Of a DNA stretch of 64,000 nucleotides, positions 3,301 to 50,923 are shown piece by piece. Source of the stretch: Branchiostoma floridae. Lineage: Eukaryota > Chordata > Leptocardii > Amphioxiformes > Branchiostomatidae. The stretch spans positions 16,873,781-16,937,780 of the forward strand of contig NC_049981.1 of assembly GCF_000003815.2 (NCBI RefSeq), in the 5' to 3' direction. The notes under the pieces were generated by a model. It did no database searches. It was not told the origin of the DNA and saw only the letters and a program-made list of their open reading frames with translations. How positions within the stretch are numbered: position 1 is the first letter of the stretch; the number at the start of each line of letters is the position of its first letter. The translations under genes were made by a program, and so were the position numbers.

Positions 3301-6300
3301 TCCCAGCAATCTCCATAATACGGGTGGAACCAGGTAAACTTGAGCGATTATGTGATGTCAGTAGTGATGGTCAATTAGGGTGTCTCCAGGTTTTAGTGAT
3401 GCCTCTGAAAGATAGATTCTGAAATGTCCACTGTCAGATCAACAATCAAGTCCTGTCACACATTTAGGACCTCCCCATGACTGTACTTATGACCACCCTG
3501 CAGACAAAGTTGGTGCTGGGTTGGGAGTAGTCTGGAAACCTTCCTATTCCAATCCTCTGATTGCATCCAGGCAAAATATGTTTTTCCATATTTGATTTTT
3601 CAAAATTCATAGTTGACTGGTGCAGACAAATTTTAAAGACTAGTAGGCAAACTTGTTGACCAAGTTCTAACCACAGATGATATTACTGAAAACCCCAAGA
3701 GTGGTCTGGTGAAGGTCATGAGGCTATGTTCAGCACTGTGTGACAAAGATTCTAAAGAGACTTAAAGCTTAATAGTCAATCCTTTACCTTCCTATCTCAT
3801 TATGATTGTAAATTATACTGCAATTGAAGCCCTTCAAACACCCGTGACTACCATTCTAAGACTACAAACTGACAAAGATATTCGATGAAATTGGCCAAAG
3901 CTAAAGTCAAAGTCAAATTTTAAGTCAAAGTTGGCCAAAAAGCTCTGGAGACATTCATGCTAAAGACTGTAACACTTGTGTTGTCTTCCTGTAGATCTTT
4001 TTTTTCTGTATCAATAAGGCACATTCTGATTTGTTAAACTGTGCTAAATTCCATTGTTGTCATCTGTAAGATTCATTTATAATATTGTGCATTCTATTGA
4101 AACAACTTTCAATACATTGGGAATTAAAGGCCTTCAGTTGGCTACATGAATGACAGTATTAGTATTGGCCCCAAAGGCTATGTTCTGAAATGTCACATGA
4201 TTGTGATGCTATACTTACTATAGCTCAACAATGTTTTTCATAAAATGGAGATCACATTATTTTAGTAGTTCAAAATATTTATCCATAAAATCCAATGTCA
4301 ATATCTCACATGTGTCAAATGTTACTAGACTAAGTATAGAGCAAACTAGTGTGTATTTTCAACTTTTTCTGTAAGCAGACTCAGTGGATTATGTCTTGTG
4401 TATCTGTTTAAACCTAATGTCGTGAATTTCTGCAAGGATTATTATTTCGAACTTTGGGCTGTTGTATGGCTGTCTTCCATATACAGATGAGTCACTCTTT
4501 GCTTCCTCTCATTTCCAAACATTGTATATGTAGGTATTCCATATGAGGTAGACATCTACACAGGTGACATCAGAGGGGCGGGGACAGATGCAAATGTCTT
4601 CCTGCAGATCTATGGAACAAAGGGGAAGACAGAAGAGGTTCAGCTCAGGAATAGGACAGACAACTTTGAACGTGAGGCAGTTGACAAGTTTAAGGTATGC
4701 ACTCTTGATAATGGTTTAAAAACGGCACACATGAACACATTTGTACTGCCTCTCAGCTTAGCACATAGTTCTTACAAGAAAGATTACAGAAGCTGATCAC
4801 ACAGTGGTGCAGTATTGTATAATATATGTGAGGCCTAAGGGATAAAGAAATGATTACTGCCCAATATTCAAAACATGTTTGTCATACGGTATTGAAAGGA
4901 CTTGATTGTCATAGGAATGTTCATCTACTGTAAATGTTGACATGTAATGCTAGCTCACCTTTATTGGTGAGGTAACCTTCATCAGTTGTTAGAAAAGGCA
5001 TTTAGGGACATTAAGTCATTTCAAACTGCAATATTTTGAAATTGACTTATTGTTCTAGATACCCTGTTTTTTAATACAATGGATGTAAGTTACCCTGTGG
5101 ATAAAGGTGAACTAGCATTACACGTATATCCTTTTTTGTTTCCGTTCAGATTGAACAGAAGGATGTTGGACCCATCACAAAGATTAGGATTGGTCACGAC
5201 GGCACTAGCTTTGGGGCTGGCTGGTTCCTCAACAAGGTAACATAATTCTATACCATTTTTCTTTGTGAAATCGTAAATGAAACTGTCATAATGGTATACA
5301 GGAATGATTGATCATGAATTTATATTACGTGTGTTTAAATGTACAACATATTCTAGGCATGATAGTTGTCATTTTACAAGAGTCTAATCGAAAACAAAAT
5401 TATTGTTCACTTTGATATCTGGCTTGAACTTTTAATGAAACTGCAGTATTTTTTCAAATAATCATATGATTTGTAGAGCATAAGGTACCTACAGTAACTC
5501 TCAGACTAGTAAATATGGTTGCTGTAAACCTATGTAAACCTAGTCTTGTATGTCTTTTGAAGAAAACAATTCAAAGTCTTTTAACTAGTATCTTGTTTTA
5601 TATCTAGGTTGTCATTCAAAGATATCCAACAGCAGAAGAACTAAAGGAGAAAAGAAAAGCCAAGAAGAAGGGACTAAAGCGACAAAAATCTGCCTCGCCA
5701 TCCCGGAGAAAACCATCTCTCTCCCCCTCGCGCAAGAAAAAGTCTACAAAATATTCCAGCTTTTCTGACTCCGAGAGTGAAGACGAAAAATCCTCCAAGA
5801 AAAAGAAGTCTGCAAAAGGCAAGAAAAAGTCCAAGAAGTATTCCAGCTTCTCTGAGTCTGATTCAGAAAGTGAGGATGAAAAACCCTCCAAGAAGAAGAA
5901 ATCTCTCAAGGACAAAAGGAAATCCAAGAAAGACAGCTCTTCCTCTGAGAGTTCTTCTGAAGATGAAAAGAAGAAGAAAGACAAGAAGAAAGATAAGAAG
6001 AAGAAGAAAAAATCCAAGAAAGACAGCAGTAGCTCAAGTAGTGACTCAGAGAAAGAGGAGGATTGGAAGAAGAGCAATGCAGAAGTGTATCTATTTGTGG
6101 CTAATAGATGGTTTGCTAAAGACGAGGATGACAAACAGATAGTGCGAGAGTTGGTACCCACGGATGAGTCAGGAAAACCACTGGAAGGAAACATCCTTGA
6201 AGGTACAGGAACAAATTTTTATGGCCAGTTCCCATGGACTTAGATTACTTGTCTCACCACTGAGATAATTTCAGCATATCACTAGATTTTCTTCTCACTC

Positions 6301-15300: not shown

Positions 15301-18300
15301 CAACTTTGGGCTAGAACTAAACTTCCAGAATTTGCCCAACTTACTCTCAACACCTAATTGTATACAGTCAGCTGACCAGTCAAATAGAAAAAGAAAAAAA
15401 AGAACTAAATTTGACTGGTTATTTGTTTGTAACAGGTCATTTCTTTTAATTCATGATGACTGTGTTGTCATGATGACTAGGTAGGCAGGTGTTAAGTTGG
15501 CACTTTACAAAGGGGTTATATACATTTTTTATACATGTATAGTAAGGTGTTTTGACACTGGTGTTGGAAGATTTAGTATGTATTGAAATAGCTGATAAAC
15601 TGCAAATAAAAATTACATTAATTATAAATTTATTTTTGTGTATAATAGTGATCTGATGCTTGTAACTGGGTGGTATTTTCACATTTCAAGAAGTGGTACT
15701 TTTTGCGTTGGTGGGATGATGTGTGTTAACCCTCCTTGTGCAAAGTAATGATTAGTAGTGTTTTGGTACATGAACACGTGTTGTCATCAAGAAGATTAAG
15801 ATTAATGTCTGGACCAATCAATAGTTTATTTCTGGCATGTTATGAATGAAGACTTTTTACCTGAAACATAGTACAATTGTAGCATCATTCATTCTTGTAC
15901 TGTTAATTACTGTTTTGGGAAGACTTGTAATTTTGTGTATTTCCTGTCTCAATTTTTTTCAAAGAATTGTATTGATTTATTATTATTGTCCTTTCGTTCA
16001 CCACAGGTAGACAAGTTCCAGCTAGAAGCAGTTGACCTTGGGAAGGTTTTCAAGGTCAAGATCCGCCATGACAACGCCATGTTGAACCCTGCGTGGTTCC
16101 TGGACAAGGTCGAGGTTGTTGACCTGGCTGACCAGGAGACTTTCGTGTTCCACTGTGAGCGCTGGCTGGGCAAGAACAAGGATGATGGGAAACTGGAGAG
16201 GTCACTCTATGTCAAGGTCAGATTTTATGATTACCTTCACAGAAGGGAAACATATTGTTTTTTTCTCTGTTTCTTCTTCCTGTTCTTCTTCTACAAACAA
16301 ATTAGATCAATGACCTGAACCAGACAGCTGTCACCATGTCTACTGAAGGTGTGTCAAATACTCACTGTGGTGTTGGATCACATAATGCAACAACTCACAG
16401 CTAGGAGGGAGACAGAGGGGATGGTCATCATATAGAATGAATGTGGTTGAGTAATAATTAACAGAGCAGTAGTTCATTAGGCTTGACAAAGAAACAAAAC
16501 AAACAAGAGTCTCATTCAAACTTTTCTCTTTTTACATTGTATGCCTGCTAGGGCTATGAGGGTGACACATCCAGCACATCGTCTCGCAGGAGCTCCTTTG
16601 GTGGCAGCCAGCTGTCGCTGAAAAGTACCAGCCCAAGTCTGAAGAGGAAGAACTCCAGAGGGTCCCTTATGGATGAGACAATACCAGAGGGACCTTGTAA
16701 GAACAATACCTTCAGTCACTACATATAGCTTTTGAACAGATACATGTGAATTATCTATGTAAGAGACATTGGCTAAATCATATCAACTGTTACCATTCAA
16801 TCTTGACTTTCAAATACCCCATAGATGAATGTTTCCTCTCATCTCTCTCTGCAGAATTCACTGGCAGTCCAGTTGATAGACAATAATTTGATTATTTACC
16901 TAAAATATTCAAGGTTCAGATTGATTCAGAGTTGCCCTGTTACATAGTAATGAAGAGTGACCCAGCATTTGGAAGTTTGATACCAGTTGCACTGTCATGA
17001 TACTTTTTCCTCCCTGTGATTCCCTACAATGTAAAGGCTGTGACAGGAGGTGGGACAACAATAAATGCCAACCCTTACTCTTCTCTTGAAATATGATATT
17101 CCTAAACACTGTGATACCTTTTCCTCCTAGTGATTCCCTACAATGTGAAGGTAGTGACAGGAGGTGGAGATGACAACGGGACCAACGCCAACCCTTACAT
17201 CATTATCATGGGACCCAAGAAGAAGACAACAGGCAGGATTCCTCTGGATCTGGAGGACAAGAGCAAGTTTGATCCCGCATCTGTGGAGACCTTTGCAATA
17301 GAAGGGGTGGATGTTGGAGATGTCAAGAGGATAGAGGTACGTTTAACACCGTGCTGTGTAACAATCTGTGCACTCAGAGGTCCTTGGTTCAAATCCCTAG
17401 TAGGTCCTGATATTGTGTCCTTGGGAAACATACTCCCCTCAGATAAGAATAAGTACCTAGCTGTGGACATTGTACATTTGTTCATTTACCTGATCTGTCA
17501 AATACTTACATAATGACAGAAAAAGAAGAGAACTTTTGGAGCCAAATGTAACCAAAACAGACAAAACTTTAGACAAAAGTAAAAAGAAAGAATGTGTTCT
17601 TGTAGCAAAAATCTCATACATCTTGTAGGCATATTTATGTCTTGAAAACCTTTGTAGTACTTGCATTATGATGTACCTTGTTGTAATCGCTACTTTCAAC
17701 AACTGCAGTTTGGCCATGATGGTGTGCTGCCAGGCCAGGGGTGGTTTGTCAAGGAGGTGGAGTTAGACGTGCCCACCGCTGGAAAGCACTACTACTTTCC
17801 CTGCAAGAGGTGGCTGGCTAAGGACAAAGAGGACGGACTGATCTCCCGTGTTCTCACACTACAGGATGCAGAGAGCACCATGCTCAGCTACACTCCCAGT
17901 AAGTAGCACCTTAAGCCCATGCCTTACAGTGAGAAATAGACATAAAGCAAGGAAGAAAACAACAACACTAAGCACAATAGTCATGGCGCATGAAATTAGG
18001 TGAAGCTAGAGTGAAGTGCAGCTAGCATGGAAGAAAAACTGAGGCAGAGAAAAGAACTTTGCAGCAGACCTGAGTCAGCTTACAGAGACTGCCATTTTCA
18101 TATAGAACTGTTTAGCCTATAGTGACCGCCTGTCTTCTTTATACCATGATCATTTTCTTCAAAGTAACTATAGACAGGTGTAGTGGCTACAATATATAAA
18201 AATGTACTTTGCATAAAGGTTAAATTCTTGCTTCACTGCTTTCTTTCATTTGTTTTTAAACAGTCCTTCAAAATCTGATTTGATTTGTGTTTATCTTTTG

Positions 18301-21300
18301 CCACTAGTGGTGCCGTATGAGGTAACAGTGTACACGGGTGATATAAGCAGTGGTGGCACCGACGGGAAAATCACCATGACTGTGTTTGGCTCTGGTGGCA
18401 CCACTCAGGAGATACCACTTGAGAAAGGGGAGGACAGATTTGAGAGGGGAAAGGTCGACATCCTTCGGGTGAGTATCTATTGAGGTAACAGCCCTCTGAA
18501 AGTTTGCTATCAATGACAAAAGGGACATACAAGACAAACAGGCAACTACTGCCACACCGCTTGCCTACAAAGCTGGTGTGTTACACTTAAGGGCTGTCCT
18601 ACCAGCTATACAGATACAGATGCTGATCTCAATTTCATTTTAAGATACATGTTTGGTCAAAGCTGCCAATGACTGAAAATGAAACATGACTGTCAGACTT
18701 TCTTCAATGGCAACAAATACAATGGGGTCAACCATGACTCACATACATGTGTGTATTTCAGTCATGCAAGCACACCGGGTTTGGTTTCACGTAGTGGATT
18801 CATTCAAGTTTACACTTTTATTATAAAGATATGCAACAGCTGTTGAATTGTTTCCATTGTTAACATGTTACAGATGGAGTTAGATGACGTTGGTGAGTTG
18901 AAGAAGATTCGAGTCAGCCACAATGGGAAGGGCAGTAGGCCTGACTGGTACTTAGAAAAGGTGAGTCTGTGCGTGCACATAGATATAATGCATCTCTACA
19001 ATTGTACTAGTTAGAAACTTTCTGTAAAAGCTTTCCTGTATTCCTTGAGTAAAATTTGAAGTTAGATTCAGTATACAGAATTTCAGCTCTGAAGAAAGGA
19101 AATAAGGTTTGTAATTTGCTGACATTCTCCTTTAAAACTGTGTACATTTACTCAAATTTTGGAGGCACAAAGGAAAGTGCATGATTATTATTGAGCACCC
19201 AGTATTTCAAGCAATGTTGTCAGATTGTTGGCCATGACAAAATTTGACCTGTGACCTATTACATGCAAAGGGAGCAATATACCTACTGATTATGATTACC
19301 TACTAGGCTATTGCTGTAGCTGATAACAATGTTTATCATAATGATTGTGTCTCATTTTCTCAATGTAGATTACTTTAAGGAACCAAGACTCTGGGGAACT
19401 CTCAGTGTTCATCTTAGATGACTGGATCTCCAAGAATAAAGGAGATGGCCAGCTGACCAAGGACATCCCTGCTAGTGTTGGTGGCAAAGCAACTATCAAG
19501 AGTAAGTTTTAACCAGAACACATTGGGCTTACCGTAGTCCATATTGAAACTGTTTAATATATAACCTTTTCTCTGCTGAAGTAAGCAGGGAGAAGGTTAG
19601 CAATAGGACAGTCGTCTGCAGATTATAGTGGGGGGAAAACTCTTCATCCAAATCCATATTGAAACTCAGTAACTATTATTTGATTAATTTTCTTCCTGCT
19701 GAAGCAGCCTTTTGGCACTGAACTAGTATTGGGCAGCAGTTAGGCAGCAGAGAGAAGGTTACAAAATGAATAGATTAACATTGTGCTACAGTTTATCTCT
19801 GGATAATAAGTTAAAAATGACATCACCCTTGGAGGGGATGGTAATGCATGATGACTTTGTAATAGTTAAACATTTGCTACTGTCTACATGGTTGTGTATC
19901 TCTGGATTATAGAAATTTTGAAATAGAATCTTTCTGCGATAACTCCCCGTTACATGACTTGGCTTGAATTGTAACAGAAATCTGATCTATTCAGCAACAT
20001 CTTTTTGTCTCATTTTTTTTTTCATTGTGAAACAACCAGAGGGGCGAGTAAGAACAGAAAGAAACAACACCCCGACTCCCGGGATTCGAACCCGCGCCAA
20101 ACCCGGGCAGCCGGATCACAAATCGAACGTGCAAACCGTTCGGCCATAAAGGCTTAAGCCGTTAGGCGTCTTCGGTTTAGCAGTCCTTGAACACCACTGT
20201 TACACTACTCCCCCTTTTCTTTTCAAGATTCGTCCTCGAATCTCCGAGTTCGACATCCCTGTGTGGCACATACTAGCCTGTTACTCACAGGGTCGGCATG
20301 GGAACCAGTGAAACAACCAGAGGGGCGAGTAAGAACAGAAAGAAACAACACCCCGACTCCCGGGATTCGAACCCGCGCCAAACCCGGGCAGCCGGATCAC
20401 AAATCGAACGTGCAAACCGTTCGGCCATAAAGGCTTAAGCCGTTAGGCGTCTTCGGTTTAGCAGTCCTTGAACACCACTGTTACAATTGTTATTTGTCAT
20501 GTACTGACAGTCAATGGATACTATAAGCAATCATAAACTACGTACAAGGTCTCGGNNNNNNNNNNNNNNNNNNNNNNNNNNNNNNNNNNNNNNNNNNNNN
20601 NNNNNNNNNNNNNNNNNNNNNNNNNNNNNNNNNNNNNNNNNNNNNNNNNNNNNNNNNNNNNNNNNNNNNNNNNNNNNNNNNGAAACCAAACTGATGTCTT
20701 TAAGTTCCCTGATATGTTGAGTCTTGGAGACCTGCACAAGTGTAGGGTGTGGCATGACAGTAAAGGTAAGGATTTTCTACATTTGACTTAAAGTTTACTC
20801 TCAATATGCTAAGGTAGCCATTTGTTTGGCACCAAATTTGAAAGTTTCAAAAACATGTCTTAGATTGAATAAAAACAGACAATATTGAGGTGAACGGAGA
20901 AGAATACAGGAATTACATGACTGTACAGATAAGGCAAGGACTATCATGATTTGTCTGAATGGGCAGAAATTAAAAAAAAAGGGTTTGATACTTGATATTC
21001 AGTCAGAAATTGTTTGAATGTTAAAAGCTCTATATAAATCCAAATGTCTTACAACTTGCTTACTTGCATGGATGCCATAATTCATTGCTCTAACTTACTG
21101 TCGTTCCCTTGTCATCTACCCCCCCCCCCATACTTCTGAAGCATGTTACCTGGCAGCTATATCATTAGGTTAGGTAATAGTTGGTGAGCATGTAATGTTT
21201 GCTAATCTAACTTTTTTTAGTTTGTGAATGACAAAGTTTGAATTACAAATCCTCTTGGATTAAAACTGTACATATTAGCATCTTCATTGTTATTACCTTT

Positions 21301-24300
21301 GCATGGAAAAACATTAGACATGTACATTTAATGTACTGTGTATTCTGCTTCTTGCAATAATTACATTCTTTCTTTAAGGTCCTTTTCTTCATGTCAACTT
21401 TTCTTCACTTTTTTTGCATGCAAAATTTCCTCAGTTTCCGCAGAAGGTATGATGGTGATGTTTTAGTGTATCAGACTTCAGAGGGTTTTAATTATACTGA
21501 TCCTGAAATGGAAGGTTTGGAAACTTGACTTAGGTTAATCATATCTCAACCCATGAAATTCAATGTACAAAAAACTATCCATCGGATCCATAGAAAATGG
21601 TCTACCATAATTGTTTCCAGACTTTTTGTGTTAGGTCAGAATTTATAACTTTTTATCTGTGTATTGACTGTGTAGTGTCACTCAACGACATATACATTTT
21701 GTACATGTACAAAGTATTGATATTCATGACGTGCAAAATTCTATGCAAGTTTGAAATATGTTTAACTTTATAATGCAAAGTCCCTTAGAAGTTTGCAGTG
21801 ATATTTTTGAGTGTGAATGGAAAGTTTATAAACTGTAGAAAAGAATATATCATATTGCAGTTGCCTTCATGTGAGAAATTCAATGTTCTTCTGTTTGATG
21901 AATATACATGTATGGTTCAGTATTTAACTGTATTTTTGCATGATATATTTAGCTATCTGTCAAGATGCAAAATCACTGCATAACACTGGCCTTTTATCCA
22001 TTATCAACAGGGTTTGGAGCAGGTTGGCACCTGGAATACATTGAAGTTCAAGACCAGAAGACGGACAAGTCGTTCATGTTCCCGTGTGGCCGCTGGTTGG
22101 CAAAGGATGAGGACGACAAACAGATCATGAGAGAGCTGGTCTGCACCACCCCGGACACTCCCAAGTCTGACAAGGAGAAAATAGGTTAGTACATGTATAC
22201 ATGCTGCATGTGTATGATCTGACATTGTGCCCTTGGGAAATGCGTGTTACACAAACTTACAGAGTCAAGTTTTACACAACTTTGCACAAGGTATGGCTCC
22301 AGGTACCTCAAACACGGGACGTCCATTTAACGTAATGACAGCTTCTGAAGCATACTCAACAATTTGATAATTAACATTTCAGTAAAATCAAACTACTTTG
22401 AATTACCATGTAAACAAACACCTGTTATCTTACAGCTTACAACATCAAGGTGGTGACAAGTGACAGGAAAGAAGCAGGGACTACCAACGATGCTTTCCTC
22501 ATCCTGGAAGGAGACTTGCGCAAGTCTAAGGAGTTTTCCATGGACAATACTGCCAAGGGGAAATATTTCAAACAGTAAGAAAACTTTCTCCCTTAGGCTT
22601 TAAGAGATGACCTTTTGGAAATTTAAGGTTCAGGGTTCCCTCTAGTTGTAAAACACTATGAATGCTAACTTACATGTCATGACGTTACCTCAGAAATCAA
22701 GCAAGACAAATTTTGTTATCTTTCTTCCAATAATGCTTGAATGTGTGTGTGTTTGTGTGTCTGTATGTGTGTTTGTGTTTAGATTAAAGTGTAGACAGCC
22801 TGCTTTTACTAACATCATGCGATCAATAAAAAAAAAGATTTCAATCCTAAGGCAGGTTACAGCTAGTCAATTGAAGACTAATGAACAAAGAAAGTAATAA
22901 ATTAAAACCACCTGTTCTTTTTCTCTCATCAGGGGTCGAACAGATGAGTTCAAGTTCACGACCCGGAATGTTGGAACGCTGAAGGGCATGACCTTGGGGC
23001 ACAGGAAGGCAGGGTCAAAGGACAAGCATCAGTGGCATGTGTCAGAGGTCATTGTGGAGAACACCTCAACCAGTGATAAGTACGTTCTTATTTGAGTCAT
23101 ATAGTTTGCCAAAATTTGAACATCTTAAAGCCTTTTTTAAATGTAATTATATTGAAATGCTCCCAACATTGTGTCTCAAAAGGAGTGACACTGTGCAATC
23201 CAAGAAGTGTCATAACGTTGGAACTACATAGTACAATGCATTTAGACATTTGTAGACATCAAGATTTTACTCCCTAAATTGGAAGTGAGATCACCAATCA
23301 GTGGACTTTCTGCATGTATGCCAAGTAATATTCTTCACCTTCAGGTATATATTTGGGTGCAACCACTGGATCCCGGCGGGAGAGGAGAGACACCTCAAAT
23401 TGACAGACACAGAGGAAAGCAGACAGACTGCAATCAAAAGTAAGTTGTTGACATGCAGTACAGGGCTCATAAGTTGTTGGAACACCTTAGACCCTTTTCC
23501 ACAGAATTTGTAAACATAAACCTCTTTCTATAATGTACAGGAAACCCTTTCAAGAATATGAACTACCAAGAAGAGGCCAATATGGGTGTCGCTCATGAAT
23601 TTTTTTTGCTAAACAGAAACCCATTACAGTGTAGTAACCACCCAGTACAGTGGTATTAGACACTGGCATTACAATCTATAGCAGCAATAAGTTCAAAATC
23701 TAAAACAATAAGATTTCTGTTAACCAACTTAATGAATACATTGATCTATGTTAGGCATTTGCCAACTGGTGTTTACATGTACATGTGATGTTAAAATTGT
23801 ACAAAATGTCCCTTATGATGGCTAGGTGTTAACTATCACATAGTACAGTTCAGCAGTGCTGTTGTATTGCTAGGTTAAACTTAATGACAAATCAATAAGA
23901 AAATAATTGTTTCTTTTTTGTTTTAGATTTAGCTCCAGTTCAGTATGAGGTTGTCACGGTCACTAGCGATGAGAAGGGAGCGGGTACAGACGCCAACGTC
24001 ACCATCATTCTGTACGGCGTAAACGGAGACACTGGAAAACGACAGCTCAAGCAGAAGTTCCGCGATCTCTTTGAGCGCGGGCAGACTGACCGGTTTCAGT
24101 TTGAAGCACTGGACCTCGGAGAGCTCACGAAGGTGCGCATCGAGCACGACAACAAGGGGTTTGGTGCGGATTGGATGTTGGACAGGGTCGAGATCACAAA
24201 TCTCGCCACCAATCAACAATGGACCTTCCCTTGTGGGCAGTGGCTAAGTACTAAGAAAGGAGACGGCCAGTTGTACAAAGACTTGCTGCCTAGGTCTTAG
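220..24300 (+). CDS. LOXHD1: LOXHD1-like multi-PLAT-domain protein (3' part of gene, exon-intron)
   Basis: Exons joined by eye with GT-AG borders and unbroken phase: 220-355, 523-674, 896-1130, 1688-1881, 2506-2698, 4534-4694, 5150-5236, 5608-6202, 6655-6809, 7065-7198, 7492-7655, 7965-8069, 9010-9118, 9473-9657, 12388-12566, 13252-13368, 13694-13853, 14244-14398, 16007-16216, 16552-16696, 17131-17336, 17709-17898, 18308-18468, 18874-18960, 19369-19501, gap-20765, 22011-22184, 22436-22574, 22933-23079, 23345-23439, 23927-24300. These give 5361 nt plus whatever the N gap hides. The product is a string of PLAT domains, each with a [16 protein letters not shown] strand, an IGHD..G..AGWFLDKV segment and a FPC.RWL..DEDDGQI.REL segment. 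Vertebrate LOXHD1 has 15 PLAT domains and is needed for hair-cell function; here 12 plus one partial are visible. PLAT domains bind membranes or proteins. No lipoxygenase catalytic domain is seen. The gene starts upstream of the window. Confidence 0.85.
523..1130 (+). CDS. LOXHD1: LOXHD1 exons: PLAT domain 1 of the window
   Basis: Two exons, 523-674 and 896-1130. The first carries the YDVEVHTG...[21 protein letters not shown] part. The second holds the [17 protein letters not shown] and [14 protein letters not shown] parts. The usual intron between these last two parts is absent here, so exon structure varies between domains. Confidence 0.88.
1688..2698 (+). CDS. LOXHD1: LOXHD1 exons: PLAT domain 2 of the window
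   Basis: Exons 1688-1881 and 2506-2698. The first encodes [20 protein letters not shown] through [11 protein letters not shown]. The second encodes [19 protein letters not shown] and [14 protein letters not shown]. The final strand diverges ([13 protein letters not shown] instead of DGQIVREL). The donor after 2698 reads GTAAGT. A 27-nt microexon may follow at 3307-3333. Confidence 0.87.
2746..2917. repeat. Tandem repeat, three copies of about 57-60 bp
   Basis: Units start at 2746, 2802 and 2862. Each opens GTTGAT(T/A)(T/G)GTCATG and contains GCA(T/C)TGACCA followed by a divergent half ending near TGACC. Unequal decay indicates an old duplication. Confidence 0.8.
3307..3333 (+). CDS. LOXHD1: Candidate 27-nt in-frame cassette microexon of LOXHD1
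   Basis: A pyrimidine-rich tract ending TTCCCAG precedes 27 bases followed by GTAAAC. The segment fits phase 1 to phase 1 between the exons ending at 2698 and starting at 4534. It adds nine residues (PISIIRVEP after the split codon) to the linker between two PLAT domains without a stop. No transcript evidence is available here, and chance splice-like signals in a 1.8-kb intron are possible. Confidence 0.4.
4534..6202 (+). CDS. LOXHD1: LOXHD1 exons: PLAT domain 3 with a long Lys/Ser/Glu-rich insertion
   Basis: Exons 4534-4694, 5150-5236 and 5608-6202. The domain starts [22 protein letters not shown] and continues [19 protein letters not shown]. About 140 residues of [17 protein letters not shown] and related repeats then precede the closing strand [20 protein letters not shown]. 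The insertion sits exactly between two PLAT strands, in a loop, and contains SxSE/D runs typical of casein-kinase-2 sites. The 595-nt exon is by far the longest of the array. The usual FPC is replaced by FVAN. Confidence 0.85.
6655..7655 (+). CDS. LOXHD1: LOXHD1 exons: PLAT domain 4 of the window
   Basis: Exons 6655-6809, 7065-7198 and 7492-7655, in phases 1, 0 and 2. The domain is canonical: [60 protein letters not shown] basic Ser-rich linker ([17 protein letters not shown]) follows. Confidence 0.88.
7965..9657 (+). CDS. LOXHD1: LOXHD1 exons: PLAT domain 5 of the window
   Basis: Exons 7965-8069, 9010-9118 and 9473-9657. The first two split the domain after GENDDTG, an intron position not used by the neighbouring domains. 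The 940-bp intron between them holds a transposon copy and two decayed partial copies of the 7965-8069 exon. The last exon encodes [19 protein letters not shown] and [20 protein letters not shown]. Confidence 0.87.
8092..8535. mobile_element. Dispersed inverted-repeat MITE, copy 1 (right end lost)
   Basis: Begins GGCCACAGCAAGTAAATTTT and follows the same sequence as 49422-49880 over most of its length, including ATGGATGACATCCT near the left end and TCAGGCGAAAATTAATGAG near the right. The right terminal repeat is missing and is replaced by the pseudo-exon repeats. It lies in a LOXHD1 intron. Confidence 0.75.
8544..8780 (+). pseudogene. Two decayed partial copies of the LOXHD1 exon 7965-8069
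   Basis: A roughly 139-bp unit is repeated (8544-8682, 8683-8780). Each unit contains GTAAGA(T/C)TG followed by ACAGATGCCA(A/T)TG and ATGATGACACAG, matching the GTDANV...NDDTG part of the functional exon at 8014-8069. Copy 1 (8601-8660) keeps the donor GTAAAA. Copy 2 (8731-8780) has a deletion and its donor GT is mutated to TT. Confidence 0.8.
9658..12387 (+). other. Largest LOXHD1 intron in the window
   Basis: 2.7 kb, AT-rich. Apart from the candidate alternative exon at 10243-10385, no coding or repeat structure stands out. Confidence 0.6.
10243..10385 (+). CDS. LOXHD1: Candidate alternative last exon of LOXHD1 (acidic tail)
   Basis: After a TTTTCAG acceptor, 140 nt stay open in the phase (1) left by the exon ending at 9657 and finish at TAA 10383-10385. 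The encoded tail is rich in Asp, Glu, Ser and Thr. If used in place of the exon at 12388, it would yield an isoform ending after PLAT domain 5. No clear AATAAA was noticed just downstream, so this may be a chance open segment. Confidence 0.35.
12388..13853 (+). CDS. LOXHD1: LOXHD1 exons: PLAT domain 6 of the window
   Basis: Exons 12388-12566, 13252-13368 and 13694-13853. Motifs are [39 protein letters not shown] and [21 protein letters not shown] Lys-rich linker of about 25 residues follows. The first codon (Tyr) is split with the exon ending at 9657. Confidence 0.87.
12600..12780 (+). repeat. Decayed tRNA-derived SINE fragment
   Basis: TGGTGGCCTTGTTCAC followed 50-60 nt later by GGTTCTGGATTCAAATTTC resembles degenerate A and B boxes. 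The tail (GGATTGGACATAAGGCCAGA) resembles the tails of other SINE-like pieces in the window. It lies in a LOXHD1 intron. Confidence 0.45.
14244..16696 (+). CDS. LOXHD1: LOXHD1 exons: PLAT domain 7 and a Ser/Arg-rich linker
   Basis: Exons 14244-14398 and 16007-16216 form the domain ([59 protein letters not shown]). Exon 16552-16696 joins in phase 0 and encodes a roughly 48-residue linker with RRSSF and KRKNSRGS, resembling basophilic-kinase sites. The FPC cysteine is kept as FHC. This linker is the longest between domains in the window. Confidence 0.83.
14399..16006 (+). other. LOXHD1 intron, no recognised content
   Basis: 1.6 kb of AT-rich sequence. Several short open stretches lack splice context matching the neighbouring phase (0). 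Nothing further is supported. Confidence 0.55.
16996..17080 (+). pseudogene. Decayed tandem copy of the 5' end of LOXHD1 exon 17131-17336
   Basis: Reads TGATTCCCTACAATGTAAAGG and AATGCCAACCCTTACTC, matching the functional exon start at 17131. The acceptor CCTCCTAG has become CCTCCCTG and the frame is shifted by a small deletion, so it cannot be spliced as in the parent exon. Confidence 0.8.
17131..17898 (+). CDS. LOXHD1: LOXHD1 exons: PLAT domain 8 of the window
   Basis: Exons 17131-17336 and 17709-17898. It begins [20 protein letters not shown], where the usual GAGTDANV has become NGTNANPY, and ends [21 protein letters not shown] decayed tandem copy of the 5' end of this exon lies just upstream at about 16996-17080. 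Confidence 0.86.
17345..17480 (+). repeat. tRNA-derived SINE fragment
   Basis: CCTTGGTTCAAATCCCTAGT is a B-box-like motif. It is followed by GTCCTTGGGAAACAT, resembling the body sequence of other SINE pieces here (compare the region of 22205-22260). No intact 5' half is visible. Confidence 0.45.
18308..19501 (+). CDS. LOXHD1: LOXHD1 exons: PLAT domain 9 (divergent)
   Basis: Exons 18308-18468, 18874-18960 and 19369-19501. The start is canonical ([18 protein letters not shown]). The DANV strand is replaced by GKITM, IGHD by VSHN, and the FPC.RWL strand by [15 protein letters not shown]. Reading frame and splice sites are intact, so the domain is diverged but not broken. Confidence 0.84.
20070..20153 (-). 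other. tRNA-like Pol III promoter unit in LTR copy A
   Basis: Minus strand: A box TGGCCGAACGG (20136-20146) and B box GGGTTCGAATCC (20082-20093), separated by about 42 nt as in class II (Leu/Ser-like) tRNAs. The T stem is mostly preserved. The acceptor stem does not pair, so this is not an intact tRNA gene. Confidence 0.7.
20351..20434 (-). other. tRNA-like Pol III promoter unit in LTR copy B
   Basis: Same sequence as in copy A, offset by 281 bases: A box 20417-20427 and B box 20363-20374. In minus-strand orientation it belongs to the 5' LTR and so could drive transcription of the element. Confidence 0.7.
20556..20681. other. Assembly gap (126 N) overlapping a LOXHD1 exon
   Basis: A run of N directly abuts coding sequence at 20682. 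The hidden part should encode the first half of PLAT domain 10. The gap lies 70 bp from the TRIM, whose identical LTRs may have upset assembly. Confidence 0.95.
20682..22184 (+). CDS. LOXHD1: LOXHD1 exons: PLAT domain 10, first half hidden in an assembly gap
   Basis: Coding sequence emerges directly from the N run at 20682 ([20 protein letters not shown], then VWHDSKG) and ends at a GTAAGG donor after 20765. Exon 22011-22184 adds [12 protein letters not shown] and [20 protein letters not shown]. The missing PLAT N-terminus needs roughly 40 codons, about the length of the 126-base N run, so the exon start is probably inside or at the edge of the gap. Confidence 0.8.
20766..22010 (+). other. 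LOXHD1 intron, no recognised content
   Basis: AT-rich, with a short poly-C tract near 21120. Nothing else supported. Confidence 0.5.
22436..23439 (+). CDS. LOXHD1: LOXHD1 exons: PLAT domain 11 (divergent)
   Basis: Exons 22436-22574, 22933-23079 and 23345-23439, in phases 1, 2 and 2. The domain starts [20 protein letters not shown]. It lacks the GENGDTGER loop, has [20 protein letters not shown] in place of IGHD...GWFLDKV, and [14 protein letters not shown] instead of FPC.RWL..DEDD. This is the most divergent domain of the array. Confidence 0.82.
23927..24300 (+). CDS. LOXHD1: LOXHD1 last exon: PLAT domain 12, complete and intronless, with stop
   Basis: A single 374-nt exon after a TTTTAG acceptor encodes a whole PLAT domain: [39 protein letters not shown] and [19 protein letters not shown]. 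It ends in LLPRS and a TAG stop at 24298-24300. Unlike every other domain here it has no internal intron. It also looks richer in CpG and GC than its neighbours. Confidence 0.9.
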
Positions 24301-30178: not shown

Positions 30179-33100
30179 CTGGCAGAGGAATATAAGTCAG
30201 TTCACAGTTGCAGAGCACATTATTTTGCAGTGTGATGTAAAAAGGGAATGACTTTAACCTTCTAGATGTGCATTCAAAACAGTTCCTGTGAACTGGCATA
30301 TTGTAGAATAAATGTCAGTTGTCACTGTGTATCTGCAGAATCTATCCTATAGCTAACCAGGCAACATCTGTACAAATGTAGTTTAGGAAATTACTGCATC
30401 ATCAATGAAGTGCCATAGAAATATGGAAACAGCGCAGTAAAACAAGATATGATTATAATTATGATGATAGAAATAAAAGATATAGACTGCATAAGTATAT
30501 GAGGAAGTCTGAACAGTTGAAAAAAGCAAAAAAGTGAAAGGGAATAGTGAACGAATTTTCAATGACCTCAAAAGAGATCAGAAGAATTAGATATGGTGAA
30601 GAGAATAAGGAGAGATAAAAACAAATGAAGGAGGCCATACATACCTTTCTCACAGATCACACCAAAGGTCCCCAGGGTACAGGGGAAGTCCCTCCACTTG
30701 TTTGCACCAATGAACCCAGTTGCTTTCTCAATGCGGACGCAGTCGGAGTCTCCGGGCTGGTTGTTGGGCTCCCCAGGTCCCCAGGCACGGAACCTTCCCA
30801 GTTCTTCTCCATCCTCCCACACGTGCTTTCCCTCTTCTTCCTTATCCCTAAGTCCAATCCATGTGGGCAGCGTCTTGTTGACCTGTTGGAAATATATTCA
30901 TTGACTTTAATACTAATTATCATATGGCACTGCCCTGGGCTAAATGTCTACCTAAAATTACCTACCTGCCTTGTCCCTAGCTGCTGATCTCCTGATTGTT
31001 TGGAGGGTAAGGTAGATGTTATAGTGCACAAGTTAAGCCTCCATTATCAACCTTCTTGTTATACAGCCATAACATCATAAGAATTGCTTTGCTCACTCTG
31101 TGATTAATTAGTTGGATATCACTCACCAAGGATTATGTCACCATAAACACAAAGGAAAAACCTGGTCTTTTAATCCTGAAATAGGTACTTCAGAATATAT
31201 CAATATAATATGTATTGCTGACTGCAGTCACAATAACTTTTTTATAGAATGATACTAACAGCATAACCCTCTTTTGGTAAATGTAACAAACCTTGTTTCG
31301 CAGTTGTACAAGGAAGTTGTTGGTCGGCAGGTCTTTTGGGAGAGCTACTCGTGAGTTGTGACGAGCGCACACAGCTTTAGCTTCTGCATATGGCACTGCA
31401 ACGCTGAAAATTCGGAAGCATCTGGACCCATGTCTGTGCCAGCTGGGATCACAGACAATTTCATTCACTAGGTGGAAAGAAAGAGGCACAATATAATTGT
31501 TTGGGCCATTCACATCTAATATCTAAAAAAGTCAAATATATCTAACATTTAACATAGGCCGTAATGATTTTGTCATACGGTTAAACCTGTCTATAAAGAA
31601 ATTGACCACTAGCAACAAGTATCAAATGTCTGAAACACATTCATGTGTTGACATTCAACATGTATTAAGATTGCTTTGTCTGGCAATATCTTCAATCTCC
31701 ATTCTGTTAAAAATAAATGAGGCCTTACCTTGGCATTTGTGCATGGCTGCAGTGATCTGTTTCTGTGTCAGGGCATAGTCGTAAACCTGTAGGCAGGATA
31801 GCTGTCCAGAGAAGGGTTTGGAGACTTTTCCGTTGTACCCCACCAAAAGGGGGAATCGGGCTCTATGTTCCGTAATCCCAATCAACTTTTGCGCCACCTG
31901 AAATTTCGGTTGATTTGTTTCTAACAAGTCGCACACAGTAAAAGCAATTTAGGCCACACTAATATAATTTGTTGCTTCTAAGATTTTTCAAGTAGAAATA
32001 TAGAAAGTGGACAAAGTATATGTATATACAATGTAAAAGCCGAGGGCTGGGAAGAAAGCTTGAATGTGACCGTAGTCTAAAAACTGAGCATAAACCATAG
32101 CATAAACCTTTTTTATATCATTGCTTTTCAAGTTAAGCTTGCTTTTTTTCTAAATCTGAGAAACAACAGATTAAATAGGTGTGGTGTAAAAAAACACATA
32201 AATGACAACAAACTGCTGGGACAGAAAAGCCATCATATGATAATGTCCTGTTTGAGATCATCCCATCGAGCTTAACAGCTGACTCCTAGCTATAGATTAG
32301 TGCAAGTTTGACAAAGTAGATAATGAATATGAATAATAACAATACATGATTATCAAACAATAGTTGATAAGGCCACAACAATTCAATTTGTTGGTTCTCG
32401 GGTTTAAAAAAGAGAAAAACATAATGAATACAAAGCCTGAGGATCAGGTATATGCTATAATTATGGTACTTGTTTAATGCTCAGTTGTATTGAGTGAATA
32501 CAGTCACATCTAAGCTTTCCTCCCTGCCATCAGCTATTAGATTTGAACCAAAACACATCCTATTTGCCATGTGCAGGCCATAAAAAGCCCCTTTTACCAA
32601 CCAACAGTTAACGTTACCGGTGGTTCATGTTTACCCATGGGGTATGCTATATCCGTTGTATATAAAAACAGTGTATTTAGGGATGATACAGCAAGTTGAC
32701 AGAAAGTGGTTTCAAAATAAATTATAAAATTATAAAGAAAACAGAGACTTGTCCACCACCTTGATGTTGTCCATCCAGAGTGCTACCTCCCCACTGCTGT
32801 AGTTGTAGCTGATTCCAACATATGTCCACTTGTTGAGGACAAGGTGGGGAGCATTTATGTCTGCAGGTTGTGTGCGCCCTTTATTGTGTGGCCAAAATCT
32901 TTGTTTGAAATAAGACAATCAAATTATTTTTTTCTCCAGCATAAATACAAGACATAAGTTCATTGTTGTTTAAGAATTTGGATTAGCAGGACCTGAAACA
33001 CATATGGCGACAATTGTGTTTCAAATAAAAATCAGGTCCTGCTTATCCAATAATGGAAACGGTGTACTGTTGTCAAATGCAAACCAACTCATAAACATGT

Positions 33101-37100: not shown

Positions 37101-40100
37101 CAACCTGGTGCTGATTTGTCACACCAATTATCAAATTTTAACATGAATGATAGAGGAAATTTCAAAACACAAAAACTGGGTTGAATATTATAGAAAGCTC
37201 AGGTGTGTGAGTTCTTACCAGTCTCTTTTTCATAGAAGAGGCTAGTTGGGTTTGTTGGGTCTGCACATGGCTTGGACATTGGGCTGCAGGTTTTGTTGGT
37301 GATGACAGTGAAGGCGGCGCAGTCTGGCCGGGTGTCACAGTGTTGGGCACAGTCCTGCAGGGTGATGCCAGTACCAGAGATGGATCCGAGGTTGTCTCCA
37401 AAGCTACTGCAGTACCCTTGACGGACAGTGTAGCCATTCACCACTCGTGGACCATCTGGAACAAGTTACCAATCAACCAATCAATAATCAATTATCATCA
37501 ATGATTGCCGATGATCCCAAAGTTAAAACTTGAAACTTGGAAGTTAAATTTCTTTATTTCACTCTAAGCAGGCATCAGGTGCTGATGCATGACAGCTGTA
37601 GACATCTCTCTTCATTAAGGATGTTCTATTTTCAGCAATGGACCTCTGCTTGGCTCTGTTGTTCTCTTGCCCAGAAGCCAATACAAGCCAGAAGACATTC
37701 ATCTTTACTCAGTTATCCCTATTTAAAGTTCCCAACAAGAATGCATCTGCAGTTCCAAATGAGCTATGGAGCCCAAATGATGCTAGCCACTGAAAAAACA
37801 TAGCATGTTTAAATTAAACATGATCAATTTGGAAGTTCCTGAGGCAAGGGGCCCATAAAAGAACCTTTTCTTTTGTATTTTCACTACCTACCCAGTACCC
37901 ACATCATCATCACAATTGATCTATAGCTTCTTATGTAATTCTGATCAATGTATGTTGACGCATGAAGGGTTAAGCAGACAAATAATCAGACAGACCATTA
38001 AAACAGAGAGCTCATATGCTGATTGTTTACCACTCTTTTTGTCGTAGAACATATTCATGACAGGGGTCTTCCTCATTTTGGTGCAGGTTTTTGTCTTGGG
38101 GAAACATCGGTGGTTGTCAGTAAAGGTGAAGGCAACGCAGCCAGGGTGATTTGTGCAGCGTTCGGCACAGTCTTCCAGGGTGGTGCCATCTTCAGAGATA
38201 GACGGGATGTCGTTTCCAGGACAGCTTCCTTGGCGGACGGAGTACCCATCAACTGCCGGCAAAAGTTCTTGAAATAGAATTGAAAGAAAAGGAAATAATT
38301 TAGCATGTTGTCAATGTATCACAAATAAACAACATGGTTATTCATTGCATGGCATAATCATGATGTTTGGCCCAAATAGATTTCATGGACAGGCAAAACG
38401 TTTTGTAAACTCACTTGCAATGCACCCGTCCCCAAGCTGTTGCCCAAACAGTTTGCCTAGCCAGAATCAGTGGTTCTATGATATCATACTATGGTATTTC
38501 TGTAGTATAAAAAGTCTAAAGAAAACAGAAAAATTGGCAAATGCTTAAATACCTCGGTCTCTCAACTTTTCACAAAACAAAAAATATAATGGCGATTCAT
38601 CCAGAATTCTTGAAGTATGGCACCAGACAGACAAAAACGGAGCGCCTACTACAGGACTAAGGTTGGCCACAAGAAGCCCCCCCAAAAAAATCCAGGAAGA
38701 CTGTCAACAACACCTAGCCACCCACATTTTAAATTTGTTTGCAATCCATCCAGAGGTTCTTGGATATTCCGCTGGACACGCAGGCACACCCAAAAAGTCC
38801 AATGCTAAAACTATAGTCCTGCATTTTCATTGACAGAGGAACTAAGGAACATGGAACTTACTCTCCAATCAGAGGTTGAGTCGTGTAGATATAGTAGAGC
38901 GCCGGTGTAATTTTTCCGACTACTACTATATATACGCGACACAACCTCTGATTGGAGAGTACACGGAACTAAGGATAAGGAGTGAAACATACTGAAAACA
39001 CTCTTTATAAAAGCTCCTTGCTGAAACCAAGGAGGTTATAACCTCCTTGCTGAAACATAAGATACAACATTATAAATCATGACGTCACGGCAAAAGCTCT
39101 GCAATGACAGCCCCAACCTCCTGTCCCTGGTACTGAAGCTATGGTCGGCGTGTCTCCCTCATTGCTGGTCATAGATGTGGTCAGCGGCTGATGATCAGTG
39201 TGTTCCATGTGGGTGGCACCGGTGTCGTTTATCCTGGAGGCTTCTGGAACAGTCTGTGCAGGGCAAAATATACCAGTTAGGCATGCCAAAACAACAGTGA
39301 ACAATTTGGTCCCATTCAGAATAAAAAGATACACATATAAAATTACTACAATAGTGGTAAAGACTTCTTCTCTAACTGACTGCAGTAGCTAGCCAGACTG
39401 TACACTGAGAAGAATTTCTTTTTCAAGGCACACAACATCAAACTCAGGACTTGGATGCTTGGATATTTTCTATTAGCAAGCATACATGAATATAGCATAT
39501 TTTAACATCTATATCCCTTTGTTACTATCAAAGCATTCACTATAGGAACGATAATAGGAACGATAAAACACCTATCAAAGAGAGTATTGATTAATTGGAA
39601 ACCAGGAGTCCAACAGAAAAGTATCCCATATGTTATTTTTCAAATTTTCGAGTGTACTCATTTTCCATCCATAATATGAAAATGGCAAACATTGCTAGGC
39701 TAAATAACGTTAAGTACTTCGTTGGCAACGTTGTCACATATTTTACATATAGCTGAGTCTTTGAATTAAATTACTTTGTAATTCGTAACCTGATTCAAGT
39801 TTCAACATTTCTTTTTCACATATGCTTTTTATAGACTTGGAAAAAACACCAGCACTGTTCTTTACCACGTATGGGCCAGGCATGTCTCCCCTGAGCTTCC
39901 CCATCTTCAGGGTGAGCAGAACGTCCTGCAAGGCTTTGCCGTTAACCTCCAGCTAGGGACAGTTTTAAGAACGTTATTGCGTGACAGTTGTAACAAGTAC
40001 ATTGCACGGCAAATATAAGAATACAGTTGAACTATATGTATTCTTATTATGGTCATGGCTGTGACAGAGCCAACCGTTTAGCAACCATCCAAGGAAGTCT

Positions 40101-50642: not shown

Positions 50643-50752
50643 GTTCGGGCGGCCACCCCATGCTGTTCGGGCGGCCACCCCATGCTGTTCGGGCGGTCAC
50701 CCCATGCTGTTCGGGCGGTCACCCCATGCTGTTCGGGCGGTCACCCCATGCT
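50643..50752. repeat. 22-bp minisatellite, exactly five units
   Basis: Unit GTTCGGGCGG(C/T)CACCCCATGCT. Units 1-2 carry C and units 3-5 carry T at the variable base. It is very GC-rich in an AT-rich region. Confidence 0.95.
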
Positions 50753-50821
50753 ACCGTAGTCAACTGTTCATTGTGCTTGTCGAAAAGAGTTTTCCCGATA
50801 CAATGCACCTGTGAATACTAG

Positions 50822-50923
50822 TGTACATAGTGTATCTTCTACTGTACATAGTGTGTCTTCTACTGTACATAGTGTGTCTTCGACTGTACATAGTGTGTCT
50901 TCTACTGTACATAATGTGTCTTT
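50822..50923. repeat. 21-bp minisatellite, about five units
   Basis: Unit TGTACATAGTGTGTCTTCTAC, starting at 50822, with single-base changes between copies. Because the unit is a multiple of three, the minus strand gives a repetitive open frame that is not a gene. Confidence 0.95.

Follow-up and report, generated by a model that had tools for sequence, protein, structure and literature searches.

The question raised by this locus is whether two direct repeats lying close together in the amphioxus genome, each carrying a tRNA-like stretch, are the LTRs of a miniature retrotransposon with a Pol III promoter inside them, or have come about in some other way. In the window, which is the whole stretch of 64,000 nucleotides of Branchiostoma floridae DNA analysed here, the element extends from 20028 to 20485 and is 458 bp long, consisting of a 177-bp LTR, a 104-bp interior and a second 177-bp LTR. 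We consider it to be an LTR retrotransposon that is non-autonomous and belongs to the Helenus type, meaning a TRIM whose LTRs contain a Pol III promoter derived from a tRNA. It was probably inserted recently, and we give this reading a probability of about 0.88. Coordinates of the features are listed in Table 1.

Table 1. Features of the element and its flanks, in window coordinates and in the order in which the element is read.
Feature	Position	Strand	Basis
Target site duplication beside 5′ LTR (ATTG on plus strand)	20486..20489	.	boundary shifts
5′ LTR, 177 bp	20309..20485	-	identity to 20028-20204; PBS/PPT orientation
A box in 5′ LTR, TGGCCGAACGG	20417..20427	-	consensus match
Possible variable-arm hairpin of class II tRNA-like unit, 5′ LTR	20381..20398	-	by eye
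B box in 5′ LTR, GGTTCGAATCC	20363..20373	-	consensus match
T-rich stretch without TTTT after tRNA-like unit, 5′ LTR	20334..20349	-	
Interior, 104 bp, without long ORF	20205..20308	-	
Primer-binding site (PBS), complementary to tRNA-Glu 3′ end	20294..20307	-	comparison with tRNA sequences
Polypurine tract (PPT)	20208..20224	-	
3′ LTR, 177 bp	20028..20204	-	identity to other LTR
A box in 3′ LTR	20136..20146	-	consensus match
B box in 3′ LTR	20082..20092	-	consensus match
Target site duplication beside 3′ LTR (ATTG on plus strand)	20024..20027	.	boundary shifts
First minus-strand run of at least 4 T downstream, 211 bp past the element; Pol III read-through is predicted to stop here	19813..19817	-	function inferred

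The two repeats are identical at 177 of 177 bases. TG...CA ends are obtained at only one of the seven boundary shifts displayed, and it is at this same shift that ATTG is found on both flanks. The G+C content is 54% in the LTRs and 52% in the interior, compared with 37% for the 1-kb stretch on the left-hand side. With its two LTRs, a length below 1000 bp and no proteins, the element has the form of a TRIM; the single ORF of at least 75 aa (stop to stop) that overlaps it has 79 aa. No second copy of the LTR or the interior was found within the window, where the best other match has an E-value of 0.03. Exact patterns, one from the LTR and one from the interior, had no match in a viral contig collection, and an exact LTR pattern had none in a genome contig collection, both collections being unsuited to testing an animal family.

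A PBS follows the 5′ LTR and a PPT precedes the 3′ LTR, the former judged against tRNA sequences. A single base separates the PBS from the 5′ LTR, the interior on the minus strand opening C-TGGTTCCCATGCCG. The PBS agrees with the complement of the 3′ end of Drosophila tRNA-Glu at 13 of 18 positions, namely at 13 of the first 14, the remaining one being a possible G:U pair; the corresponding values are 11/18 for human tRNA-Glu, 9/18 for human tRNA-Lys and 6/18 for human iMet (best of four offsets in each case). The interior ends with GAAAAGAAAAGGGGGAGTAG on the minus strand, which constitutes the PPT just before the 3′ LTR; 19 of its last 24 bases are purines, a level reached by 1,887 of the 127,700 24-mers of the window. 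Because the PBS and PPT are correctly placed and ordered on the minus strand, the element should be read on that strand, from 20485 to 20028, with the right-hand repeat as the 5′ LTR and the left-hand one as the 3′ LTR. The initial annotation had described identical 177-bp repeats, TG...CA ends with a 4-bp ATTG duplication, and a 104-bp interior with a tRNA-Glu-like PBS and a PPT, from which it recognized a TRIM; all of this anatomy holds, with the strand, which had been left unstated, now assigned. Priming of the element by its own tRNA-like unit was also considered and found no support, since the complement of the PBS finds no more than 8 matching bases out of 14 anywhere in the LTR.

On the element's own strand, each LTR carries the A box TGGCCGAACGG and, 43 bases on, the B box GGTTCGAATCC. 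Compared with the consensus of the two boxes, both are perfect when an 11-base A box is used, and there is one mismatch with a 12-base A box. The two LTRs are the only places in the window with a perfect pair of A and B boxes. None of 60 shuffled windows contained such a pair, and among 20,000 shuffled LTRs there was one that did. Since one mismatch per box already gives 1.8 pairs on average in 20 shuffled windows, only the perfect pair is telling. An additional pair with one mismatch per box, at 32599 on the minus strand, is at the level of the shuffled windows.

Similarity to tRNAs, on which the class II reading depends, was scored against nine human tRNA sequences. The class II tRNAs among them (two Leu and two Ser) scored 33–42, values attained by none of 1000 LTR shuffles, and tRNA-Glu scored 33, a value attained by three of 1000; the scores of Lys, Val, Arg and Ala were equalled by 120, 168, 96 and 790 shuffles per 1000, respectively. 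Ungapped identity of the unit to tRNA-Leu-CAG was 42/83 (51%), versus 38–44% for the other eight. These results bear out the earlier statement that each repeat has the A and B boxes of a class II tRNA, in that the boxes are perfect and class II tRNAs are the best match.

A functional tRNA gene was rejected as an explanation of the unit. No tRNA was called by ARAGORN (bacterial code) or by Rfam at the gathering score, the acceptor arms appear unpaired by eye, and for 73 nt of the unit that include the possible variable-arm hairpin the folding z-score is 0.29 (125 of 200 shuffles were at least as good). When Rfam was run at E-values up to 5 on 20001–20540, two weak tmRNA matches were obtained, one per LTR (13 bits and E about 0.0035, with a gathering score of 47), which we read as T-arm similarity; a further match that overlapped and belonged to the same clan was left out. 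Judged by its sequence, the unit reads as a promoter relic and not as a tRNA gene. The capture of a tRNA-like unit inside the LTRs, as proposed in the initial annotation, is thus supported by the boxes and by the similarity, and its use by Pol III is predicted.

One alternative is that a tRNA pseudogene or a SINE has been duplicated locally and that there is no retrotransposon at all. A single locus in the window, with the tRNA-like unit present twice and 281 bp apart, would be in line with this. The boundaries of the repeats, however, coincide with the TG...CA ends and with the outer 4-bp duplication, and a PBS lies one base inside one repeat while a PPT lies at the other. The A-run beside the element (minus strand) sits outside the 4-bp duplication, and is therefore not the SINE tail of the insertion. 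On the basis of these boundaries, target duplication, PBS and PPT, we rejected local duplication of a SINE or tRNA pseudogene, which we regard as hardly credible. A conventional TRIM transcribed by Pol II, whose tRNA-like stretch would be a mere passenger with no role as a promoter, is somewhat less improbable, though still quite unlikely; the lack of a tRNA call by ARAGORN or by Rfam at the gathering score could be cited in its favor. Against it stands the fact that both boxes are perfect while the remaining tRNA has decayed, a combination regarded as a sign of promoter function in the available text of PMC10886601. The element also lacks TATA and AATAAA, as well as ATTAAA, on both strands.

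For a Helenus-type TRIM, the following cycle can be proposed. The A and B boxes of the 5′ LTR would be bound by TFIIIC, and Pol III would initiate some 12 bases ahead of the A box; the part of the LTR to the left of this start would then act as U3. Meeting no TTTT in the element, Pol III would continue as far as the 3′ LTR or beyond it into flanking DNA. The particle, reverse transcriptase and integrase would come from a helper element, which is probably of the Ty3/Gypsy type since the target duplication is 4 bp. With tRNA-Glu as primer at the PBS, strong-stop DNA would be transferred to the 3′ LTR, finding matching sequence on any transcript that contains a 3′ LTR; the second strand would be primed from the PPT, and the ATTG duplication would be produced by integrase. 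Reverse transcriptase, integrase and gag families were absent from the 132 of the 146 window ORFs of at least 75 aa covered by a Pfam scan. Further copies of the family would be expected elsewhere in the genome, interspersed and accompanied by solo LTRs as for Helenus.

The sense strand of the element has no TTTT, so that an RNA made by Pol III reading through could contain the entire element. As the first T-run lies 211 bp past the element, a transcript begun by Pol III in the 5′ LTR could reach about 0.6 kb, and it would presumably still serve as a template because strong-stop DNA only needs a copy of the 3′ LTR. TTTT is also missing when the sequence is shuffled by dinucleotides (164 of 2000 cases) or by single bases (653 of 2000), and from 137 of 1268 stretches of the window that have the same length. 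Given the dinucleotide shuffles, its absence may be due to chance, and selection against TTTT on the sense strand, when tested, was not significant for one element. A more specific reading, which we consider doubtful, is that this is the first cephalochordate Helenus, with a class II tRNA-Leu head and in a terminator-free form from whose sense strand TTTT has been purged family-wide. According to this reading, read-through RNAs would replicate because only the start site must lie in the LTR, with the purging of TTTT as the consequence.

The absence of differences between the LTRs (0/177 sites; 95% upper bound of divergence 1.7%) makes a recent insertion, as claimed previously, likely, provided that the LTRs do not owe their likeness to gene conversion or to a fault in the assembly. 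Since the heterozygosity of amphioxus is given as 3.2–4.2% in the available text of PMC12500494, the insertion may perhaps still be polymorphic.

Elements of this kind have already been named Helenus by Kojima (2024, PMC10886601), so the strategy is not new; Helenus comprises TRIMs of 311–1263 bp, known from fungi, animals and a plant, in which the LTRs are tRNA-like. In animal Helenus elements, according to the available text of that paper, the target duplications are of 4 bp, the 3′ ends of tRNAs serve as primers (tRNA-Glu is among those in bivalves) and PBS regions are shared with Gypsy elements, the autonomous LTR retrotransposons that would mobilise them. Pol III use by Helenus is called unvalidated by the paper itself. 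The amphioxus element resembles them in the tRNA-like sequence with A and B boxes in both LTRs, even though ARAGORN and Rfam (gathering score) call no tRNA, and in the tRNA 3′-end PBS, the PPT and the 4-bp duplication (ATTG), which also agrees with a Gypsy helper. It differs in that its host is outside Table 1 of PMC10886601, whose only chordates are fishes, coelacanth included; Branchiostoma, lancelet and amphioxus are absent from the main text of that paper. The head is class II tRNA-like here versus tRNA-Lys and tRNA-Val in the figure legends on animals, but class II heads have a precedent in fungal Helenus copies predicted as tRNA-Ser (PMC10886601). The initial annotation had regarded the replication strategy as unusual; the features inferred do fit such a strategy, but it has already been described under the names Helenus and TRIMp3 (PMC10886601). 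At most, therefore, the element extends the known Helenus group and opens no new one, and it may already be included in Repbase or in the supplements of PMC10886601.

Among the literature matches listed, as judged from titles and the beginnings of abstracts and with most subscription papers and Repbase lying outside this scope, there was no paper on an amphioxus Helenus or TRIM, and the full name of TRIM combined with amphioxus gave no match. Pol III LTRs do not appear in the available text of PMC6934838 or PMC11417395, and Helenus is mentioned only in passing in that of PMC12859917.

Among other systems, the plant TRIM Cassandra is alike in having a small-RNA Pol III promoter within its LTRs (PMC7215508, PMC10886601), and transcripts reading through LTRs have been reported for its tandem arrays (PMC7215508). 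Cassandra LTRs contain a 5S rRNA promoter and conserved Pol III terminators (PMC7215508), whereas the unit here is tRNA-like and without TTTT; no 5S rRNA was detected by Rfam at the gathering score in the window or at E-values up to 5 in 20001–20540. Ajax, a nemertean TRIM, also has a Pol III-type small-RNA sequence in its LTRs, but this is 5S-derived and the duplications are of 5 bp (PMC10886601). In tRNA-derived SINEs (SINE2), a decayed tRNA head is likewise retained as promoter (PMC10886601), but these are mobilised by non-LTR elements and lack LTRs, PBS and PPT. If the amphioxus element is indeed a Helenus, it would make the patchy animal range of Pol III-type TRIMs wider. Its identical LTRs make this copy well suited to two questions about the group, namely whether the template for retrotransposition is really transcribed by Pol III from the tRNA-like unit, and how Pol III passes the first LTR.

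As for the surroundings, ORFs with a PLAT domain are present on the plus strand on one side of the element (15872–16318 and 17115–17513) and on the other (23899–24300), and 11 of 65 further ORFs in 40–34437 match PLAT at E-values up to 0.01. The PLAT ORFs at 15872–24300 are probably exons of one multi-PLAT gene, presumably LOXHD1-like. Since they lie on both sides of the element and on the opposite strand, the element is probably located in an intron of this gene in antisense orientation. A PLAT ORF compared with PDB matched 13 sequences, including Rab6-interacting protein 1, polycystin-1 and lipoxygenases. At 20556–20681, 70 bp from the element, there are 126 consecutive N, either an assembly gap or a stretch of withheld sequence. 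Upstream of the PLAT ORFs, at 5608–6243, there is an open frame of 211 aa rich in Lys and Ser repeats and without a Pfam match. Other Pfam domains in window ORFs are C-type lectin, PAN (an ORF at 37945–38310, minus strand) and Methyltransf_FA, the last matched by two ORFs between 35104 and 63212. Together with PLAT, these domains are in keeping with an invertebrate such as amphioxus. Two adjoining tandem arrays occupy 50643–50922, one built from a 22-bp unit repeated five times (98% matches), the other from a different unit of 21 bp, also present in five copies (94%).
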